Assembly: GCA_022450155.1 (NCBI GenBank)
Contig: JAKUQR010000001.1
Coordinates: forward strand, 1-64,000
Reading direction: 5' to 3'
Length of the DNA: 64,000 bases
From: Gammaproteobacteria bacterium
GTDB lineage: Bacteria; Pseudomonadota; Gammaproteobacteria; Arenicellales; UBA868
Part shown: piece after piece, positions 8,423 to 23,789 of the stretch
Layout of the letters: every line of letters begins with the position of its first letter
How positions within the stretch are numbered: the stretch's first letter is position 1
Notes under the pieces: model-generated
Told to the model about the DNA's origin: nothing
The model's database searches: none
The model's input: only the letters and a program-made list of their open reading frames with translations
Position numbers and translations under genes: made by a program

Positions 8423-9883
8423 GTGAAAGTATTTATTGCCTGCCTGGGCACAGAGACCAACACTTTCTCTAACATGCCGACGGGCCTGATCAATTTCCAA
8501 GAAACCATGTTGTACCACGGCGATGCAACCCGGGACAGTACGGCTCTTTTCGCCATGCCGCTAATCATCTGGCGGGAAAAAGCTGAAGCTGTCGGTGCTG
8601 AGGTCGTCGAGAGCCTGGCCGCTTTTGCCCAACCGGCCGGCCCGACCATGCGGACTGTATATGAGGATTTCCGAAGCGAGATTCTCACCGATCTGGCAAC
8701 AGCCATGCCGGTCGACTTGGTATTGCTCTGCCTGCACGGTGCCATGGTGGCAGACGGCTACGACGATTGTGAAGGCGATCTGACACAACGAGTAAGGCAA
8801 ATTGTTGGGCCGGATACTGTCATCGGCGTTGAACTCGACTTGCACTGCAGTATCACACAAACATTGACCGACCACGCCGACGTCATCATCACCTTTAAGG
8901 AATACCCACATATCGACCCGCCCGATCGGGCCCATGAACTGTTTGATGTCTGTTGGCAGACCCTACAAGGCGAAGTAAAGCCCGTGATGAATCTCCATGA
9001 TTTACAGATGATCAGCATGTGGCGAACACCGGTTGAACCGGCAGCATCGATTGTTCGCGAGATGCACGAACTCGAAACTCGCGACACAGTACTGTCGGTG
9101 TCCCATGCACATGGTTTTCCCTGGGGTGATGTGCCGGATGCTTCAGCCAAACTCCTGGTTGTCACAGACAATGACATAGAGACTGGTCGTAAAATCGCGT
9201 CAGATTTGGCCGAGACAATCTGGTCGCTGCGTGACGAGACGCACCCGACCGGGCTCAGTATTGATGAGGCATTCGATACAGCACTGGCGTCTGAATCGGG
9301 ACCCATCATCATGGCTGATCATGCGGACAACGCAGGCGTCGGAGCACCGTCTGATTCGACCTATATCCTCCAGGCCATCCTGGACAAGAACGTTGAGAAT
9401 GTAGCTAGCGGATTTTACTGGGATCCGGTGGCCGTACGCTTCTGTGTTGAAGCCGGTGAAGGCACCGAGTTTACCCTCCGAATCGGCGGAAAAGTGGGAA
9501 AAGGCTCTGGCCAACCGGTTGACCTACCCATCACCGTCCGCAAGATCGTCAGCAATGCCGAACAGTCCTTCGGCCAGGCAAAGCAGACCATGGGATGCGG
9601 TGTCTGGGTGAGCGCAGCGAATAATCTTGATATCTTTCTCAACAGCATCCGGACCCAGACCTTTCACCCCGACGCTTTTGAGCAGTTTGGCCTAAAACTC
9701 AGCGACAAGAAAATCGTCGTGGTGAAATCGACCCAGCACTTTTACGCCGGATTCGCCCCGATAGCTGAGTCAGTGCTTTACGTCTCTGCGCCGGGTTCGA
9801 TCAACATGAACTTCTCCGAGATTGGTTTTAAGAAATTCACTGACCCCTACTGGCCAAAGGTAGCTGATCCGAGATCAGCCTGA
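8423..9883 (+). CDS. M81 family metallopeptidase (MlrC-like), copy 1
   Basis: A 486-residue member of the M81/DUF1485 family, named after MlrC, a microcystin-degradation enzyme. Marks are TETNTFS at residues 10-16, CLHGAMVADG, LDLHCSITQ, FKEYPHID and DHADNAGVGAPSD, which supply the likely zinc ligands. The first motif has Thr where copy 2 has His (HETN). The GTG start at 8423 has AAGGG upstream. It faces copy 2 tail to tail with a nine-base gap. The protein is probably cytoplasmic, as there is no signal peptide. Substrate unknown; it may cleave small linear or cyclic peptides taken up by the adjacent transporter (inference). Confidence 0.92.
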   Translation: MKVFIACLGTETNTFSNMPTGLINFQETMLYHGDATRDSTALFAMPLIIWREKAEAVGAEVVESLAAFAQPAGPTMRTVYEDFRSEILTDLATAMPVDLVLLCLHGAMVADGYDDCEGDLTQRVRQIVGPDTVIGVELDLHCSITQTLTDHADVIITFKEYPHIDPPDRAHELFDVCWQTLQGEVKPVMNLHDLQMISMWRTPVEPAASIVREMHELETRDTVLSVSHAHGFPWGDVPDASAKLLVVTDNDIETGRKIASDLAETIWSLRDETHPTGLSIDEAFDTALASESGPIIMADHADNAGVGAPSDSTYILQAILDKNVENVASGFYWDPVAVRFCVEAGEGTEFTLRIGGKVGKGSGQPVDLPITVRKIVSNAEQSFGQAKQTMGCGVWVSAANNLDIFLNSIRTQTFHPDAFEQFGLKLSDKKIVVVKSTQHFYAGFAPIAESVLYVSAPGSINMNFSEIGFKKFTDPYWPKVADPRSA

Positions 9884-9892
9884 GCGTCATCT

Positions 9893-11371
9893 TTACGCGG
9901 TAGCATTATCATCCAGCGGATAGATCGGCCGCCTGAGTGCTTGATAATTCAGCTGATCGTTGCGAGACGTGGTCACGCCGTGACCGTCACAACGAATTGT
10001 TGCTCGAGCAAGCGGTTGGAACCCGGCGCGATAATGAATTCTCGACTTGAGTAATAGGTAACGGCACTGAGTCGGGTCGATTCCATTGTTAGAGAAGATG
10101 CCGGCATCCCAGGGCTCATGGTGAAAAGATACCACCACAATGCGCATACGACCGGTGTCCAACACAGCCGTCGGTCCAGTCGACACCTCGACACCCGTAT
10201 ACATTGGACCCTCTACTGTCCACTTGCCGTCAGTCAGCGAGGTGACTCGCCCTTCCACATGAAAGGACTCTCCTGACCGACCGATACTGGGCATGTCGGT
10301 TTTCCCGCCCAGCTCGATCGATACCCTATTACCCAAACCTGTCTCTTGCATCATCTCCACCGCCGCAGGATCCCAAACAGCCCCGACGGCCACATCCACC
10401 AGCGCCTGTTTGTGCACTTCCCGGATAACCTCCATCACATCGGCCGTGCCGCCAGAACCGACGTTGTCTGCATGATCAAGCAGCAACACAGGCCCCTCGG
10501 TATACTGCCTGGCATCACTGACCGCGATCTCCAGCGGACAACCGCTGTAAACAAACCCAGTTCGGTCAGACCAAGCGCCGTCCAGCAGCTGATCGCAGGC
10601 CGAACGGGCCTGCTTCTCATCACCGTCGCCCACCACCACCGCAGAAATACCAGCATCATAAATATCGGCCATCGGAAATCCGCCGAAAAATGTCGCCGCG
10701 GGCACCCCATCACGCTCGAGTTTGCGGGTCATGTCCTGCAATCCTGACATCGGCGCATCGGCAGTACCCATGCACAATGTCTGAGCCAGAACGGGTCGGT
10801 TATCCCACACCATCACCGGGCTGATCTTTCCTTCCAGAGTACGGAACATCACCTGGGCAATCTGGTCACCGACCTCATACATATCAACGTGTGGATACGT
10901 CTTGAACCCAATCATCATCGTACAGTTGTCAACCATCCGCTGGGTCAGGTTGCAATGCAGATCGAGTGTTACCGCAATCGGCAGGTCCGGCTGTACAGCA
11001 CGTATACGGCTGAGCAGGCACCCTTCCCCATCAGCCTCATCCTCTGCCACCATAGCACCATGAAGATCCAGCAGCGCAACATCGAAGGGTTGTGCCTCTA
11101 TAGGTGCCAAAATCGTCTGCACCAAATGCTCGTAAACATCCTGGTGAACCGGTCCGCTGGGCATCGCCTCTGTGGCAAGGGGTGTCACCATCTCACAACC
11201 CTGTTTGCGCGCATGATCGATGTACGCGCCAGTGGGTGTATTGGTACCGCCAAAATGGTCGAGTACATCGGTACCCGTGTAATAGGCCCAGTTCTTAAAC
11301 CGAGTGAGATCAGTCGGTACCGGTGAGAACGTATTCGTCTCATGCTTCATCATTGCGATCAGGACCCGCAT
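9893..11371 (-). CDS. M81 family metallopeptidase (MlrC-like), copy 2
   Basis: A 492-residue M81 protein with the canonical opening HETNTFSPVP, then LDLHGAMVAED, LDLHCNLTQRM, FKTYPHVDMYE and DHADNVGSGGTAD. The overall layout matches copy 1, but the two are clearly diverged paralogs rather than a recent duplication. The ATG is preceded by GAGGAG. It is transcribed away from the M20 gene, sharing a 234-base divergent control region that contains an inverted repeat (11443-11463). Role inferred as hydrolysis of small or unusual peptides. Confidence 0.92.
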   Translation of the reverse strand: MRVLIAMMKHETNTFSPVPTDLTRFKNWAYYTGTDVLDHFGGTNTPTGAYIDHARKQGCEMVTPLATEAMPSGPVHQDVYEHLVQTILAPIEAQPFDVALLDLHGAMVAEDEADGEGCLLSRIRAVQPDLPIAVTLDLHCNLTQRMVDNCTMMIGFKTYPHVDMYEVGDQIAQVMFRTLEGKISPVMVWDNRPVLAQTLCMGTADAPMSGLQDMTRKLERDGVPAATFFGGFPMADIYDAGISAVVVGDGDEKQARSACDQLLDGAWSDRTGFVYSGCPLEIAVSDARQYTEGPVLLLDHADNVGSGGTADVMEVIREVHKQALVDVAVGAVWDPAAVEMMQETGLGNRVSIELGGKTDMPSIGRSGESFHVEGRVTSLTDGKWTVEGPMYTGVEVSTGPTAVLDTGRMRIVVVSFHHEPWDAGIFSNNGIDPTQCRYLLLKSRIHYRAGFQPLARATIRCDGHGVTTSRNDQLNYQALRRPIYPLDDNATA

Positions 11372-14729: not shown

Positions 14730-15638
14730 TCACTCGCGTCTGCCGCCTGTGGCCAAATAGAGTCCGGCACCCACCAGGGCAACGCCAATCATGATGCTGG
14801 CAGTCACCGACTCGCCTAACATCCACACACTGAGCAGCACTCCGGATATCGGCGAGACAAAATTGAAGCTGGCCACCACACTGGGTGAGTAACGTTTCAT
14901 CAGGTATGAGAACACCATGAAACCCAGACCCGCGATGACCATCCCCTGGTAGAGGAGGCCGCCAACAGGTATCCAGCCGAGGTTCTCCCAGCGCACCGAT
15001 TCGAACAGCACGCCACATGTTCCAAACGGTAACAAGCTGAAGACCATCATCCAGAACACCACGGGTATCTCACCGATAGTCCGCAGTGGCTTGACCATCA
15101 GAACCAGGCGCAAACCAAGTAGCATAGACCCTGTCAGCACGACGAAGCCGCCCGCCCCGATGACACCCAGTCCGTCCGTACCTGTGCCACCCAAGAGGAC
15201 CGCCACAGCACCGACAAAGGCGATCAGTAGACCGGCCGCTCTGCGCCCGTCCAGACGGTCCTGAGCAAGAAGAAAGTGCGCAAACAGCGCAACGAACAAC
15301 GGGTTGGTCGACTGCAGTACAGCCGATACTGTACCGCTCGCCAGGCTGAAACCGATATTCATGATTCCGATCTGAATCGTGAACACCGTCGATACCAGCA
15401 ACAGAACTGGCCAGTAAACTCGCTTTGGCCACAGTGGAATACCGCGGTACCCTGCCCATACCGCCACACAGACCGTTGCAATAGCAAATCGAATGAATGC
15501 ACTCCACATAGGCGGGAACACTGCCAGGCCGAGCTTGACGGCTACCGGGTTGCCGCCCCACAACACATGGATGGCGATACTGATCAGGACAGCCTGAAGC
15601 GGCAGGCCGGCCGAAAGGTTAGCCTTCCTGTCAGTCAA
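14730..15638 (-). CDS. EamA/DMT superfamily transporter, copy 1
   Basis: An inner-membrane carrier of the drug/metabolite transporter superfamily with ten predicted helices in two EamA repeats; it starts LQAVLISIAIHVLWGGNPVAV and ends near a YLATGGRRE tail. Start uncertain: the frame runs up to 15749 into the upstream SDR, but those residues (Cys-rich) look non-coding. A TTG at 15638 places 13 residues before helix 1, while an ATG at 15686 would overlap the SDR by 26 bases. Members export amino acids or metabolites. It is probably cotranscribed with the SDR at 15661. Confidence 0.88.
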   Translation of the reverse strand: MTDRKANLSAGLPLQAVLISIAIHVLWGGNPVAVKLGLAVFPPMWSAFIRFAIATVCVAVWAGYRGIPLWPKRVYWPVLLLVSTVFTIQIGIMNIGFSLASGTVSAVLQSTNPLFVALFAHFLLAQDRLDGRRAAGLLIAFVGAVAVLLGGTGTDGLGVIGAGGFVVLTGSMLLGLRLVLMVKPLRTIGEIPVVFWMMVFSLLPFGTCGVLFESVRWENLGWIPVGGLLYQGMVIAGLGFMVFSYLMKRYSPSVVASFNFVSPISGVLLSVWMLGESVTASIMIGVALVGAGLYLATGGRRE

Positions 15639-15660
15639 GTTTCGAGCGGAATCTTTACAC

Positions 15661-16413
15661 TCAAGGCAGAGTGACCCGGCCACCATCGACCACGAAGGTC
15701 TGGCCGCTGACAAAGGCGGCATCGTCGGACAACAGGAACAACGCCGCACTGGAGATATCCTCCGGCACCCCGAGCCGTTTGACGAAGGCCTCCTGCTCCA
15801 TTCCGGCTAGAACATCCGGGTCCATGCTCTCGGTCATGTCGGTCTGGATCAGGCCCGGCGCGATGCCGTTGACCCGAACTTTGGGACCAAAAGCCCCGGC
15901 GCAGCTGCGCACGAACCCTATCACTGCGGCTTTCGAGGTGCTGTAAGCAATTATCCGCGGCCTCGAGCGCAACCCGGCGATCGACGAGATGCAAACGATG
16001 CTGCCGCGGCCCCGAGCGATCATACCGTCCTTGACCGCCATCACGGGCAGGAAGGTGCCCTCCACATTGACCCGCATCACCTGCCGGAAAGTCTCCAGGT
16101 CGAGATGCTCGTAACCGCCGGCTTCCATGATGCCGGCACTGGTGACCAGCATGTCGATGGGTCCAAGATCCGACTCGACGGCTGTGACCATCTTGCCAAC
16201 CTCTGGCTCACTAGCGACATCAGCTCGGTATGTAGCGCCGTCACCGCCGCTGGCCCGCACCTGCTCGAGCGTCTGTTGCGCCGCGAATTCATTGGCTACC
16301 CAGTTGATCGCCACCTTCACGCCCCGCTTGCCCAAGGCCGCGGCGATCGCGCGGCCAATGCCTCGCGATCCGCCGGTCACCAGAGCCACTCGGCCCAGCG
16401 CCTGATCCGTCAT
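15661..16413 (-). CDS. SDR family oxidoreductase, 3-oxoacyl-ACP reductase-like
   Basis: A 250-residue classical SDR: GGSRGIG near residues 14-20, VTSAGI near 88, Ser in ISSIAG, YSTSK catalytic motif, [14 protein letters not shown] and a C-terminal [10 protein letters not shown]. All of Ser-Tyr-Lys are present. AAGGAGAG precedes the ATG. The EamA gene starts at or just beyond its stop. NWVANE after beta-2 fits NADP preference (inference). Substrate unknown. Confidence 0.92.
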
Positions 16414-16687: not shown

Positions 16688-17674
16688 TTACTCGCCCCAA
16701 ACCTCGCGCAGAAACGATACCCAGTTCTCGCCCAGCACCTTGCGAATTCGAGTCTCGGACCAACCGCGGCGGACCATGGCGGCAGTCAAATTGGAAAACT
16801 CTGAAAGCCGCTGCAGACCGACCGGCTGCGGCGCAACATCCCAGTCTCGGACGATCAGTCTGCGGCCGTGGCCCTTGTCCAGGCTGAGCCAGTCAAAAAA
16901 TGCAGCATCCTGACCCTGAGTAAAATCCGTGCCGATTCCAACCCGATCCTCGCCCACCAGATCAACCACATAATCAATTGCCGCAACACAATCATCGACG
17001 GTCGACTCAGCACCCCGAGGCAGGAATGAAGGGTAGGTGGTGACGCCAACAAAACCACCGTGCTCAATGATCAGTTTCAGCTGAGCATCGGTCTTGTTGC
17101 GGGGGTGATCGAGCAGCGCAGCCGGGCAACAGTGGCTGTACGCCACCGGCGCCTTTGAATAGCGGATCGCGTCTTCACTGGTCTTTGCACCCACGTGCGA
17201 CAAGTCGACCACTACGCCGACTCGGTTCATCTCATCGATCAGACCGCGCCCATAATCGGAAAGGCCGCTGTCATGGCTTTCATAACAGCCGCTGCCGGCG
17301 AGATTCTGGGTATTGTAAGTCAACTGCATCACCCCTACCCCAAGCGACTTGAACACAGCAATAAGTTCCAACCTATCCTCTATGCCGCTGGTGTTCTGCC
17401 AGCCAAGGATGATGCCAACCCGGTTTTCGCGTTTGGCCTTTGCTATGTCGGTCGTCGTGTGTACTGGCAGCAGGATGTCTGCGTGCTCGCTAAACCATGA
17501 CTTCCATTGAGCCACGTTGACTAGCGTGTCGTGTAACCCTTCCCAGACACTGCAGGTGCAGTTGGCCGCGGTGATGCCGCCACTGTGCATGTCTTCGAAG
17601 ACCTCGCGACTCCACTTAGAGATCACGAGTCCGTCAACGACGATCGCATTCCGATGAATTTCTTCGGCATTCAT
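16688..17674 (-). CDS. M19 renal-dipeptidase-like protein lacking part of the metal site
   Basis: A 328-residue M19 (membrane dipeptidase) family TIM barrel, without signal peptide. Family marks are VVVDLSHVG (His160), YSHCCPAALLDHPRN (His181, Arg192) and VGIGTDF (Asp250). The N-terminal HxD metal motif normally found in DGHND reads DGLVIS (residues 14-19), and the bridging Glu region reads ILGWQN (about 89-94), so three of the five usual ligands are absent. Thus either a divergent subfamily with a different centre or a non-peptidase. It starts 12 bases after the D-acylase stop, implying coexpression. Confidence 0.85.
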   Translation of the reverse strand: MNAEEIHRNAIVVDGLVISKWSREVFEDMHSGGITAANCTCSVWEGLHDTLVNVAQWKSWFSEHADILLPVHTTTDIAKAKRENRVGIILGWQNTSGIEDRLELIAVFKSLGVGVMQLTYNTQNLAGSGCYESHDSGLSDYGRGLIDEMNRVGVVVDLSHVGAKTSEDAIRYSKAPVAYSHCCPAALLDHPRNKTDAQLKLIIEHGGFVGVTTYPSFLPRGAESTVDDCVAAIDYVVDLVGEDRVGIGTDFTQGQDAAFFDWLSLDKGHGRRLIVRDWDVAPQPVGLQRLSEFSNLTAAMVRRGWSETRIRKVLGENWVSFLREVWGE

Positions 17675-17686
17675 GGCTAATAGCTC

Positions 17687-19150
17687 TCAGGTAATGCGGG
17701 GGTTTTTGAGCAGGCGCCCCGTCCGGGACCCAGTGCCAGCACCCTCCTGCCAGGCGATGGCGCCATTCACAATTACGCAGCCGATACCAGCCGCTGCGCG
17801 GGTCGGCTGCTCGAATGTTGCCAAATCTGCAATGCGGGACCGATCAAAGACAACTAGGTCGGCAAAAGCCCCCGCCTCGAGAACGCCGCGACCGGCAAGA
17901 CCAAAGGTCCGGGCCGACAACCCGGTCATCTTGCGTACCGCCTCTTCGAGCGGGAACAGCTGGCGGTCCCTGCTGTAATGACCAAGAACACGGGGGAACG
18001 TCCCCCACAGTCGCGGATGGGGGTGCTTGTCGTGAGGGATACCGTCCGAACCGATCATGCCCATGCGATGGGCAAGGATTCTCTCGACGTCCTCTTCTTC
18101 CATACAAAAGTAGATACCGCCGCCCGGTTGCAGACGCGTCATGGCCTCGCCCAGGGAACAGCCCCATTCCGCAGCAATGTCCGCCAAATCACGACCACCC
18201 GCCTCAGGGACCGCAGCTGACCAGCTGACGATTATCCGCCGAGAAGGTTCTATCAACTCCTCCAGCAGCACAGTCGAGCCGGCGACATAGGGGTACACGT
18301 CGAAGCCGACGGGCTGTTCAGCGGCCGCGGCTTCGATGCGGGCCAAAGACTCGGCACTGCGACCCCACACCGCCTTGCTCTGGCACTTGTGGTGAGAGAC
18401 CACCACCGGGCAGCCCGCCCGACGGGCCGTGTCGAAAGTCTCGTCGAGTGATTCGAACAGTAGATCGCCCTCGTTTCGCATGTGGGTAGCATAGACCCCC
18501 TGAAAAGCAGGCAACTCTCGGGCTAGCGCTTCAACCTCTGACGCCGGGGCCGCCTTGTTGGGGGGGTAGAAAAGTCCAGTAGAAAATCCGCCGGCACCGG
18601 CAGCAAGGCTCTCACGAAGTAGAGCGCGCATCTGCTCGATCTCGGCCTGGGTTGCCGGCCGGTCTAGCCGATCCATGACCCCGCAGCGCAGGGTCGAATG
18701 CCCGATCAACGGCAGTGCATTGATCGCTGCCGGCCGGCGGGCGAGCTCTGTCGAATAGGAATGGAATGTTGAAAAGTGTGCACCATTTTTTCCGTCCGGA
18801 AACACCAAGTCCAGCGGCGGCGGCGGTGCTCGGTCGCTGAGCCAAGGTGAAAGGCTAACACCACAGTTGCCAACCACCACAGTGGTCACACCTTGGCTCA
18901 GCTTTGGAGTGACTTCGGGATTAACCAGCAGCAGACGATCGTCGTGCGTGTGGACATCGATGAACCCTGGTGTGATCACCTTGCCTCTTGCATCGATCAC
19001 TGCCTCGGCTTTTCCCACAGTAAGGTCACCGACCGCGATTATACGATCGCCCTGTAGCGCAACATCGGCTGTTATCGCAGGACATCCCGTCCCGTCGATC
19101 ACCTGCCCACCCGTGATCAGCAGGTCGCACTGGTTCAGTGTTTCATTCAT
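17687..19150 (-). CDS. N-acyl-D-amino-acid deacylase (D-aminoacylase) family amidohydrolase
   Basis: A 487-residue amidohydrolase of the D-aminoacylase family, which hydrolyses N-acyl-D-amino acids. It has DVHTHDD (HxH), VVGNCGVS with the metal-bridging Cys, GGFSTGLFYPP, YATHMRNEGD, VVSHHKCQ and the late GSDGIPHDKHPHPRLWGTFPR block with the catalytic Asp. Ends with a small beta domain (GAFADLVVFD). It is G+C rich compared with neighbours. It lies between the beta-propeller and the M19 gene on the minus strand. In this context it suggests use of D-configured or acylated amino acids. Confidence 0.92.
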   Translation of the reverse strand: MNETLNQCDLLITGGQVIDGTGCPAITADVALQGDRIIAVGDLTVGKAEAVIDARGKVITPGFIDVHTHDDRLLLVNPEVTPKLSQGVTTVVVGNCGVSLSPWLSDRAPPPPLDLVFPDGKNGAHFSTFHSYSTELARRPAAINALPLIGHSTLRCGVMDRLDRPATQAEIEQMRALLRESLAAGAGGFSTGLFYPPNKAAPASEVEALARELPAFQGVYATHMRNEGDLLFESLDETFDTARRAGCPVVVSHHKCQSKAVWGRSAESLARIEAAAAEQPVGFDVYPYVAGSTVLLEELIEPSRRIIVSWSAAVPEAGGRDLADIAAEWGCSLGEAMTRLQPGGGIYFCMEEEDVERILAHRMGMIGSDGIPHDKHPHPRLWGTFPRVLGHYSRDRQLFPLEEAVRKMTGLSARTFGLAGRGVLEAGAFADLVVFDRSRIADLATFEQPTRAAAGIGCVIVNGAIAWQEGAGTGSRTGRLLKNPRIT

Positions 19151-19179: not shown

Positions 19180-20019
19180 TTACAACAGCCTCAGCCGCGT
19201 AATACAGTCCAACGGTGCGGTCTCGGCCAGGTACAGGTTTCCGGCGTTGTCCCCGCCCACTCCGTGTGCGCCGAAGCGGACTGGCCGACAGCGTCCGATC
19301 AGGGTGCCGTCCGGCGACAGCATGGAAAGCCTTGGAATCTGATCAGTCACAAAGACATTACCAGCCGGGTCTGCGTATATGTCCATCGGATGAAAAAAAT
19401 CCGTCCAGGCCTCGATGAATCGGCCTTCCAGATCGAACAACTGTACGCGGTTATTCTCCCGGTCCGCGACCAGCACTCGCTCGGCCGAGTCGACCCAAAC
19501 CGCATGTGGTGTGGTGAACTCCCCCGGACCCCCTCCAGGCCGACCCCAGGAAAACCGGAACGTTCCGTCGGCCGCAAAACAGTGCACTCGCGAATTGCCA
19601 TAACCATCCGAGACGTAGTAATCGCCGTTCGGTGCCTGGGCGATATCAGTCGGGTGGTTGAAAGGGTCATTGAACTGCGGTCGGTGCCTTTGACCCAGGC
19701 GGAAGCGCACCGCGCCTGAGGTCTCACAGGCCAGAATCTGGTGTGCATCACGGTCAACCAACAGAACGAGATCATCGCGGTTGATGAAAATGCCGTGGGC
19801 ATCAGAGAACTCACCCTCGCCCCAACTGTCGACCAGCGTTCCGTCTGGATCAAACACCAGCACCGGGGGATTGGAGCGCTGAAAGACGTAGACTCGGTCC
19901 CGCGAATCGACCGCCAACTGACTGACCGGGCCGAATGTCTGTCCGTCGGGCAATGTCCCCCAGGGGCACTCGACGGCATAGGTTTGACCCCCCAGGGTCA
20001 CGACAATATCATCACGCAT
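19180..20019 (-). CDS. NHL beta-propeller resembling peptidyl-alpha-hydroxyglycine amidating lyase (PAL)
   Basis: A 279-residue six-bladed NHL propeller without signal peptide. Its layout follows eukaryotic PAL: VYVFQRSN (Arg48) for the IFHRG region, AHGIF (His75), SDGYGNSR (Tyr140), TTPHAVW (His172) followed by VADRENNRVQLF, and AHGVGGD (His252). These correspond to the PAL zinc histidines and catalytic Tyr and Arg with similar spacing. PAL splits peptidyl-alpha-hydroxyglycine into an amide and glyoxylate. Cytoplasmic location and the neighbouring deacylase and M19 gene suggest a catabolic lyase acting on an alpha-hydroxy amide (inference). Could also be a sugar-lactone-type hydrolase. Confidence 0.8.
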   Translation of the reverse strand: MRDDIVVTLGGQTYAVECPWGTLPDGQTFGPVSQLAVDSRDRVYVFQRSNPPVLVFDPDGTLVDSWGEGEFSDAHGIFINRDDLVLLVDRDAHQILACETSGAVRFRLGQRHRPQFNDPFNHPTDIAQAPNGDYYVSDGYGNSRVHCFAADGTFRFSWGRPGGGPGEFTTPHAVWVDSAERVLVADRENNRVQLFDLEGRFIEAWTDFFHPMDIYADPAGNVFVTDQIPRLSMLSPDGTLIGRCRPVRFGAHGVGGDNAGNLYLAETAPLDCITRLRLL

Positions 20020-20243: not shown

Positions 20244-20279
20244 AAAAAGGCCACCACCCCTCTACAAGGGATGGTGGCC
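20244..20279 (-). terminator. Rho-independent terminator after SBP2
   Basis: On the minus strand, GGCCACCA pairs with TGGTGGCC and CCCT with AGGG, one mismatch apart, around a short loop; TTTTT follows directly. It starts about 60 bases after the SBP2 stop codon. Confidence 0.88.
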
Positions 20280-20340
20280 CGGATACAACCAAATTTCCGA
20301 CCTGTTACCAATAACGATTTGGCCTCAGGTCAGGACTGCC

Positions 20341-21936
20341 CTATTTCTCGATGTTCCAGAAAAAAGGTACCGGTGATATCAGCACACCCTTGAGGGATGA
20401 GCGATAGGCCGTTGGTTGAAACCATTGGCCATAGTTGACGTACGGTACGACTTCGTAGGCTCTTTTCTGCAACGCTATTCCGATCTCGACTTGCTTCGCG
20501 GGATCACTTTCACGACTGAACTGATCACGCAAATCTTCCAGCATCTTGTCGCATGGCCAACCAAACCAGGCCTCTTCCACGCAACCACCGGAGATACCGA
20601 TATTAGCAATTGGCGAGGCCACATCAGCGCCAGTGCTATAGGTGTGGAAGATGTTCCAGCCCCCGTCAGCGATGCTCTTGGTCTCGGCTCGCCGGGAGGT
20701 CAGAGTACTCCAGTCCATCGCCTGCACTTCGACCTTGGCACCGATCTTACGCAGCATCTGCGCGGTCACCAGTGAGGCACCGTGCAGAACCGGGATGTCG
20801 GTCGGATCCATCAGGATCAGCGTCTCACCGTTGTAGCCGCCTTCCTTGAGCAAGCGACGGGCCTCGTCCAGGTCCTGATTCATCAGGGGCCCGGAACCAA
20901 TGTCCGTATCCAGAGGCGTATCACACATGAAGTACGCAGCACAGGTCCGCCAGAACTTCTGATCGCCGATAATCGCCTGCAGGTAGTCCTCCTGCTTGAC
21001 CATATGCAGCAAGGCCTGGCGTGCCTTTGCATTATCAAACGGGGGATTTAGATGGTTTGGCCGCAACCAGCCTTGGGTCCCCAGGGGATCGATCACCTTG
21101 ATGGTGATATCGGGGTTGCCTTCCATTCCCGCCACCAGGTCGGGAGACGGGGTCTCCCAGAAGTCGATCTCACCAGCAATCAGGGCGTTCATGGTAGTCG
21201 CCGGATCAGGGATATACAGCCACTCGACCGTGTCGAAGTGGACGACCTTACCGCCGGCGGCGTAACTGGCGGGTTCAGAGCGCGGCTTGTAGTTGGTGTT
21301 CTTCCGGTAGGTAACTTTGACGCCCGGTATATAGCCATCTTTGTCGAACACAAAGGGTCCTGAACCGATAACCTCTGGCACTGCCTCGAATGCATCGGTT
21401 TTGGCCAGTCGTTCGGGCATCATGAACGGTACGTTGGACGAGATCTTACCGAGTGAATCGAGCACCAGACCATAAGGCTCGTTGAGCTTGAGAGTGAAGG
21501 TCTTGTCGTTGTTGGCCGTCCAGGACTCGGTGAACTTGGCCAGTTTCTGCCCCATGCCGTCGCGCTTGCTCCAGCGCTGAATACTGGCGATACAGTCTGC
21601 CGATGTCACGGGCGCTCCGTCATGCCAGGCCAGGCCCTCACGCAAGGTGAATGTATAGGTCAAACTATCGTCGCTGACCTTCCAGCCTTCGAGCATCTGC
21701 GGCTGGGGTATTAAGTTAGAATCCATCGCGATCAGGGTGTCGTACACCATGTAGCCATGGTTTCGTGTGATGTAGGCCGTGGTCCAAATCGGGTCTAGGT
21801 TCTTGAGATCCGCATGCGGCGCAACACGGAGCACTTTCTCCGCTATTGCCGGTCCAACACTGAGACCGAGAACCATACTCGCAAAGACCGAGCAGACACC
21901 AACTTTCAGAATATTCCTAACATTTTTTCTCAACAT
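20341..21936 (-). CDS. Peptide ABC transporter periplasmic binding protein (SBP family 5), SBP2
   Basis: A 531-residue DppA/OppA-type binding protein with a signal peptide of about 33 residues (cleavage near AIA). The mature part begins KVLRVAPHADLKNLDPIWTT, nearly the same as SBP1, and shares VEWLYIPD, CDTPLD and RRAETKSIADGGWNIFHT with it. GGAGG precedes the ATG and a strong terminator follows, so it is a single-gene unit. No permease or ATPase genes adjoin it; it probably feeds the DppBCDF-like complex encoded at 4.3-8.2 kb, with a different ligand range (inference). Confidence 0.95.
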   Translation of the reverse strand: MLRKNVRNILKVGVCSVFASMVLGLSVGPAIAEKVLRVAPHADLKNLDPIWTTAYITRNHGYMVYDTLIAMDSNLIPQPQMLEGWKVSDDSLTYTFTLREGLAWHDGAPVTSADCIASIQRWSKRDGMGQKLAKFTESWTANNDKTFTLKLNEPYGLVLDSLGKISSNVPFMMPERLAKTDAFEAVPEVIGSGPFVFDKDGYIPGVKVTYRKNTNYKPRSEPASYAAGGKVVHFDTVEWLYIPDPATTMNALIAGEIDFWETPSPDLVAGMEGNPDITIKVIDPLGTQGWLRPNHLNPPFDNAKARQALLHMVKQEDYLQAIIGDQKFWRTCAAYFMCDTPLDTDIGSGPLMNQDLDEARRLLKEGGYNGETLILMDPTDIPVLHGASLVTAQMLRKIGAKVEVQAMDWSTLTSRRAETKSIADGGWNIFHTYSTGADVASPIANIGISGGCVEEAWFGWPCDKMLEDLRDQFSRESDPAKQVEIGIALQKRAYEVVPYVNYGQWFQPTAYRSSLKGVLISPVPFFWNIEK

Positions 21937-23000: not shown

Positions 23001-23789
23001 ATGACTAAGATCGCTTCAAAGTTTGCTTCCGAGCTTGTCGCTGCATTAGCCGATGCAGAGGCACCCACTAACCAACCAAGCGATAACGTCAAAGACAATA
23101 TTGATCGTTTCCGACACGCCTTAGAGATCGTGGGTGATGCCGACGATACCCAGGAAACCCGATCTACTCTGCCGAAAGATGCAGCGGATTGGTTAAATGA
23201 AGCACTCGGCGAACTAAATGGAACCCGGTCGTTCAATGATGCTGTTGTGATGGCTGCCAAAGCTGCCAGTTGGTATCAAATCTACAACGATGATAAGACT
23301 TCAGACAGCAAGGAAAGCAGCCCGATGCGGGATCTGGCTTCAGGCATGTATGCAGCACGATTGATTGGCCCCCATCGGGGACTAGTTCAATCTGATCAGG
23401 TTTTGGCCGGGTTATTTCTGCTTCGGAAAGAACTGCATTATCCGCTTCACCAGCACCAGAGTACTGAGATCTATTTTGCGGCATCTGGGAGTGTCCAGAT
23501 TCAGCATGGCATCAATGGCAAGCCCGAAACTCTTTTGCCAGGGCAGGTTTCACTGACGCCATCAAATCGGCTTCATGCCCTTACCATGGATGACCGACCT
23601 GTCCTTATATTGTGGGTGTGGTTGGGCGAATTCGGAGGGCGCAACTGGTGGTGGCACCGACAGGACAACGGGGGCTGGCGGCGTGATGCCTGGGAAAGAA
23701 GCAGCGATGCCAGCTGGGTTAAGACCGCGAGTGAGCAAGTACCTGATTCCGAGATAATCGCTCTCCAACCGAATAACAATCAATCCTGA
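23001..23789 (+). CDS. Cupin protein resembling DMSP lyases (DddQ/DddL type)
   Basis: A 262-residue protein with a helical N-terminal half and a C-terminal cupin. The metal motif is H152-x3-E156-x-Y158 (in HYPLHQHQSTEIYFAASG) with a later His192 (NRLHAL). This matches the His-Glu-Tyr-His centre of DddQ (125-129-131-163) in order and almost in spacing. DMSP lyases release dimethyl sulfide and acrylate. A Trp-rich tail (NWWWHRQDNGGW, about 215-226) follows. No acrylate genes are adjacent, so it may be a related lyase or isomerase rather than a true Ddd enzyme. It starts 44 bases after the FAH gene. Confidence 0.7.
   Translation: MTKIASKFASELVAALADAEAPTNQPSDNVKDNIDRFRHALEIVGDADDTQETRSTLPKDAADWLNEALGELNGTRSFNDAVVMAAKAASWYQIYNDDKTSDSKESSPMRDLASGMYAARLIGPHRGLVQSDQVLAGLFLLRKELHYPLHQHQSTEIYFAASGSVQIQHGINGKPETLLPGQVSLTPSNRLHALTMDDRPVLILWVWLGEFGGRNWWWHRQDNGGWRRDAWERSSDASWVKTASEQVPDSEIIALQPNNNQS

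Follow-up and report, generated by a model that had tools for sequence, protein, structure and literature searches.

A bacterial homologue of animal peptidyl-alpha-hydroxyglycine lyase encoded beside a D-aminoacylase homologue

Peptidyl-alpha-hydroxyglycine lyase (PAL) performs the second half of peptide-hormone amidation in animals, and the animal enzyme contains two disulphides. In rat PAL we take His585, His690 and His786 to be the zinc triad, Tyr654 and Arg533 to be functional active-site residues and Asp787 to be the calcium ligand. A bacterial system for comparison is MgdH–MgdL, a methylguanidine hydroxylase and an N-(hydroxymethyl)guanidine lyase. MgdL is a bacterial lyase that breaks a hydroxylated N–C hemiaminal, it is encoded in the same operon as MgdH, which is a 2-OG dioxygenase hydroxylase, and its authors report no sequence homology with PAL (PMC12508155). 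MgdL is thus a precedent for a bacterial lyase dedicated to a hemiaminal. Some bacterial relatives of PAL already bear the PAL-family name in public records. Among the matches listed from the open-licence literature, which include PMC12508155, PMC5461114 and PMC6107167, no bacterial PAL-family member with a tested function was found.

The window analysed here is a stretch of 64,000 nucleotides from a draft genome of a gammaproteobacterium (contig JAKUQR010000001.1), and the host is probably marine. It encodes a PAL-like protein beside a D-aminoacylase homologue (Table 1), which confirms the overall observation of a preliminary description of this DNA. The reading frame of the PAL-like protein, reported there without a strand, is a genuine one.

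Table 1. Features of the PAL-like gene and its surroundings in the window.
Feature	Positions	Strand	Remark
PAL-like six-bladed NHL propeller protein	19180..20019	minus	279 aa, ATG start
R48 codon, PAL-like gene	19876-19878	minus	
H75 codon, PAL-like gene	19795-19797	minus	
Y140 codon, PAL-like gene	19600-19602	minus	
H172 codon, PAL-like gene	19504-19506	minus	
R187 codon, PAL-like gene	19459-19461	minus	
H252 codon, PAL-like gene	19264-19266	minus	
Peptide-type solute-binding protein (SBP_bac_5)	20341..21936	minus	upstream of PAL-like gene
Terminator-like hairpin, 15 pairs	20248..20280	minus	between solute-binding protein and PAL-like gene; consensus match
D-aminoacylase homologue (amidohydrolase)	17687..19150	minus	start codon 29 bases after PAL-like stop
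Divergent M19-family protein	16688..17674	minus	12 bases after D-aminoacylase
SDR dehydrogenase	15661..16413	minus	after block
EamA-type transporter	14730..15749	minus	after block

Rat PAL and the PAL-like protein share 75 identical residues among 247 aligned, the letters of the rat sequence having been checked against 3fvz. R48, H75, Y140, H172 and H252 stand at the positions first proposed for them and align with rat Arg533, His585, Tyr654, His690 and His786, respectively, and R187, which the preliminary description did not mention, aligns with Arg706. A near-equal spacing of these residues had also been claimed; this holds for H75–Y140–H172 (65 and 32 residues versus 69 and 36 in PAL) and fails for R48–H75 (27 versus 52) and for H172–H252 (80 versus 96). 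All five occur together in 80 of the 85 bacterial relatives aligned. These rows were all retrieved for their similarity to the window protein or to the family profile and are not independent, since two proteins appear twice and one genus contributes at least nine rows. Taken separately, the equivalents of His585, His690 and His786 are kept in 85, 85 and 84 of these rows (the one miss being a truncated frame), those of Y140 and R48 in 83 each, and the equivalent of Arg706 is Arg in 83. Conservation of at least 95% is reached at 29 of the 279 positions, which include each of the five named residues (hypergeometric 9e-6, with positions treated as independent); their conservation is more than chance. 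The protein has eight His, and those kept in at least 95% of the rows are H75, H172, H252 and H93, the last of which is also His in PAL. H122 and H210 are extra His of the window clade, kept in 24% and 15% of the rows.

Four divergent NHL rows were set aside for comparison, and none of them contains all five residues. In three of them (L020, L021 and L024) all three His are missing. The fourth, L027, retains the Arg533, His690 and His786 equivalents and is placed with the PAL-like rows by the tree; we treat it as a divergent case and not as a clean negative. The window protein is a PAL homologue with the catalytic set, and not PAL proper.

The D-acylase that had been noted as neighbour was borne out, with a match of 538 bits over residues 8–482 to D-aminoacylase 1rjp. 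The protein aligns along the length of the described D-aminoacylase (1RJP, 1M7J) and is a homologue by sequence. The stretches HTHDD, GNCG, SHHK and SDG, which we take to be the functional ones of D-aminoacylases, are kept in the full-length alignment to 1rjp. The next gene encodes an M19-family protein (Pfam M19, 286.5 bits), for which the best solved match was 2i5g (412 bits), deposited as ‘amidohydrolase’. M19 dipeptidases have an N-terminal H-x-D metal motif, which is absent here: the protein reads VVDGLVIS and 2i5g reads VIDGLIIA at the same place. With this sequence in place of H-x-D and with 2i5g as best match, the metal site and activity of the M19-family protein may differ from those of the dipeptidases.

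Orthologues of the PAL-like protein with at least 77% identity were found in 8 of the 61 genomes searched, its own included. The D-aminoacylase gene adjoins the PAL-like gene in all eight, the M19 gene comes next in seven and the solute-binding protein is encoded upstream in seven, the misses being contig ends. Thus the order solute-binding protein, PAL-like protein, D-aminoacylase, M19 protein is found in the eight genomes as far as the contigs reach. In three genomes (L056–L058) the solute-binding protein gene is separated from the PAL-like gene by four others. The two scanned at L056 encode an oligopeptide-type ATPase and a permease; the remaining two fall into clusters that also contain ATPase and permease genes. 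Downstream, HyuB and HyuA are encoded on the opposite strand at these loci. The hairpin upstream of the PAL-like gene in the window is one of 12 such consensus sites found in the region, where 7.5 were expected. Since the SDR dehydrogenase and EamA-type genes follow the block solely in the window and at L054 among the loci compared, it is doubtful that they belong to it.

A second linkage to D-aminoacylase occurs in another class. At L132 and L137 (genus g298) a PAL-like gene, a D-aminoacylase gene (57%) and a solute-binding protein gene (56%) stand in a row; this was seen in two of three genomes, and L133 has a PAL-like gene with neither of the others in the 16.5 kb fetched. The g298 PAL-like protein is 36–40% identical to that of the window and belongs to another clade. 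Among the loci compared, the D-aminoacylase/M19 block is confined to the window clade, the linkage at L132 and L137 being the second one to D-aminoacylase. Genome G004 counts against a strict coupling of the PAL-like gene and the D-aminoacylase: it encodes a 70% identical D-aminoacylase, and the surrounding 18 kb contain no relative of the PAL-like, SBP5 or M19 genes.

The described PAL (rat PAM, 3FVZ/3FW0) and the window protein have in common the six-bladed NHL propeller, predicted for the latter, the His triad and the equivalents of Arg533, Tyr654 and Arg706. They differ in several other respects. The equivalent of Asp787 is Gly253, and in the 85 bacterial rows this position is Asp in 6 and Gly in 74. 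Opposite the four Cys that PAL has in the aligned stretch, the window protein has N121, G141, L183 and L194. The N-terminus, judged by eye, contains no signal-like hydrophobic stretch, and the protein is likely to be cytosolic. Lastly, the gene lies within a catabolic-type operon and no copper monooxygenase partner was found: PF03712 had no match in the window genome, a weak test since this family matched in 0 of 14 control genomes.

In other clades, PAL-like genes have very diverse neighbours. These include an amidase with a TRAP transporter, elsewhere a hydantoinase with an amino-acid ABC transporter, ectoine genes, and a Rieske protein with a reductase, while HyuA/HyuB lie a few genes away from some PAL-like genes and mandelate-racemase-type enzymes are encoded nearby at L009 and L116. 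Genes at the loci compared were longest-ORF choices weighted by GC pattern and not gene-finder calls; the PAL-like gene itself was passed over by this choice in 17 of 78 loci and then forced in. The Pfam scans of neighbours covered 60 selected proteins, including a minority of the 139 same-strand neighbours listed once 11 near-duplicate loci had been dropped.

Some single loci and genes may be mentioned here. At L008 genes for SBP_bac_5, an M81 peptidase and the PAL-like protein stand in this order and are followed by one whose product combines Ala_racemase_N and D-ser_dehydrat domains, a make-up that we take to be that of D-threonine and beta-hydroxyaspartate aldolases, which could use glyoxylate. 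The M81 gene directly before the PAL-like gene at L008 can be compared with two convergent MlrC-type metallopeptidase genes in the window (8423-9883 and 9893-11371), whose scores against the microcystinase model (357 and 200 bits) stay under its cut-off of 999. The window also encodes a cupin protein (23001-23789) that matches Pfam DMSP_lyase with 46.4 bits (cut-off 27). On a SAR202 contig (L009), a PAL-like gene with 56% identity to that of the window is followed by the mandelate-racemase-type gene, and an N,N-dimethylformamidase-like protein is encoded two genes upstream on the opposite strand.

The varied catabolic contexts, with amidase and TRAP transporter, hydantoinase or HyuA/HyuB, make one fixed reaction for the family not obvious. 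They would fit a PAL homologue, in an operon for D-amino-acid or peptide catabolism, that kept its metal site and changed its chemistry, becoming a hydrolase, an isomerase or another lyase for an amide, a lactone or a compound derived from hydantoin. Retention of the calcium Asp in only 6 of the 85 rows and the clade-specific H122 and H210 point the same way. However, the Tyr and Arg equivalents are kept besides the triad, and the presence of the full set in 80 of 85 rows is as expected if PAL chemistry is kept, so that we regard changed chemistry as possible but rather unlikely.

Animal PAL accepts ureidoglycolate, and cleavage of this N-carbamoyl-alpha-hydroxyglycine to urea and glyoxylate, in purine or hydroxyhydantoin breakdown, is the same chemistry as that of PAL. 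Hydantoinase-type genes near some PAL-like genes would agree with such a function. Against a ureidoglycolate lyase, the window genome contains two matches to the separate Ureidogly_lyase family and the operon is of the peptide/D-aminoacyl type. As the main role of the protein, we keep this activity as a weak rival and consider it very improbable. No allantoicase match was found in the window genome, a family that matched in no control either.

The fold of the protein is compatible with PAL and with other NHL proteins. Pfam recognized NHL repeats (66.7 bits), and a match to NCBIfam ScyF (79.6 bits against a cut-off of 350) was taken as a generic NHL match. The AlphaFold2 model, made from an alignment of nine sequences (the window protein and eight relatives), is a confident six-bladed propeller (pLDDT 91.6, pTM 0.91). 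In it, each of H75, H172 and H252 occupies the second position of a predicted strand (74–79, 171–176 and 251–256, respectively), and we interpret these as the strands that open blades 2, 4 and 6; with one register in these blades, the triad would sit symmetrically about the propeller axis. A search of PDB sequences with the single protein placed PAL 12th, and a 22-row family profile placed it 11th, behind TRIM, Thin and designed NHL propellers. In the profile search PAL (3fvz, 5wm0) was the sole single-stretch match above 100 bits among the 60 matches listed, spanning profile positions 33–298 of 300, and the TRIM and Thin NHL domains obtained their higher total score via several overlapping repeat registers. 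By fold, PAL ranked third in a Foldseek search, and in a comparison by Z score it (Z 34.2, rmsd 2.0, 264 aligned, 28% identical) was level with the TRIM and Thin domains (Z 33.7–36.0). The fold alone is therefore uninformative on function, and the fold search was dropped as proof of PAL. A non-enzymatic NHL scaffold or sensor, whose PAL resemblance would reflect the general repeat, could explain why TRIM and Thin domains rank level with or above PAL in both kinds of search, but it is hard to reconcile with five residues kept together in 80 of 85 relatives and in none of the four divergent NHL rows, and with three His in what the model predicts to be one register on alternate blades, and we consider it highly unlikely.

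If the window protein is a PAL-type lyase, its hydroxylated substrate has to come from somewhere, and PhyH proteins or an outside source had been put forward. A PhyH partner finds no support in the gene neighbourhoods: searched with one PhyH seed, the 78 loci had no PhyH-like gene at gene distance 1–3 from the PAL-like gene and two at distance 6, and the PhyH gene nearest to the PAL-like gene in the window starts about 12 kb away. The 3.2 Mb draft window genome contains 26 PhyH-family matches, which looks like a large set. Supply of the substrate from outside fits better, since the peptide-type solute-binding protein is conserved and an oligopeptide-type ABC transporter is present in three genomes.

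Oxygenase genes do occur near other PAL-like genes, namely Rieske (L117, L036), TauD (L136) and luciferase-like (L037, L150). Outside the genus g131, matches were found in 8 loci at gene distance 1–3 and in 9 loci at 4–7, where 451 and 480 genes were examined, respectively, in 78 loci with g131 included. Seven of the eight seed proteins were taken from near matches (one of those being a reductase), which tilts this test toward an oxygenase partner. As there was no enrichment, a general oxygenase partner was rejected and the g131 pair alone stands. In g131 (L066–L069, L154–L158) a flavin-monooxygenase-like gene of about 590 aa lies at most four genes from the PAL-like gene in nine of nine loci, adjacent and on the same strand in seven, and the two form a candidate hydroxylase–lyase pair.

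The family profile matched 39 of 385 genomes of one proteobacterial class (E 1e-50), and the window protein matched 13 of 398 genomes across the phylum, its own included (E 1e-25). On plasmids, 39 records matched, 19 with a query coverage of at least 80%. Relatives in Bradyrhizobium and Mesorhizobium are 37–39% identical to the window protein over 85–99% of the query and a Priestia relative is 27% identical over 87%; these proteins are of the same family by sequence, but their genes lie in operons unlike that of the window. In a tree of 81 rows, from which nine near-duplicate loci were left out, 78 rows including rat PAL split from three generic NHL rows at 100/100. The g131 proteins group with a Bradyrhizobium plasmid protein. 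Rat PAL groups with the bacterial L152 and the Priestia plasmid protein L038 (99/91); rat PAL and several other rows are long branches of unsure placement.

Overall, we think it fairly probable that the PAL-like protein is a cytosolic three-His metal lyase, homologous to animal PAL, that acts on N-acyl-alpha-hydroxyglycine-type hemiaminals in a catabolic operon. The three His would bind a metal, probably zinc, and this metal together with R48 and R187 may hold an N-acyl- or N-carbamoyl-alpha-hydroxyglycine-type hemiaminal. With Y140 used as PAL uses Tyr654, the lyase would break the N–C bond and release an amide and glyoxylate. The gene cluster looks built for the import and breakdown of acylated D-amino acids or peptides. 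In such a route an acylated amino acid or small peptide would enter through the SBP_bac_5/Dpp-type importer and be opened by the D-aminoacylase and the PAL-like lyase, and the M19 protein would cleave a product.

A more specific version, which we put forward as a long shot, is that the lyase and the D-aminoacylase are stereocomplementary, the former acting on S (L-like) and the latter on R (D-like) N-acyl-alpha-hydroxyglycines, so that racemic substrates would be fully degraded to glyoxylate. The imported substrates would then be glycine-oxidised peptides, or N-acyl-alpha-hydroxyglycines that are racemic, oxidised or formed chemically. If true, bacteria would have a catabolic pathway for a class of dissolved organic nitrogen that has been overlooked, and this pathway would use a PAL-type lyase without any monooxygenase.

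We have seen no description of the operon that includes D-aminoacylase, of its recurrence with another clade of PAL-like proteins or of how rare the calcium Asp is in the bacterial rows. The window protein keeps the active-site set of PAL while the animal-specific parts are absent, and the conserved operon offers a testable class of substrates. Should the proposed PAL-type lyase activity be true, it would suggest that the PAL fold has a catabolic role in bacteria and that there is a microbial route from N-acyl-alpha-hydroxyglycines to glyoxylate.
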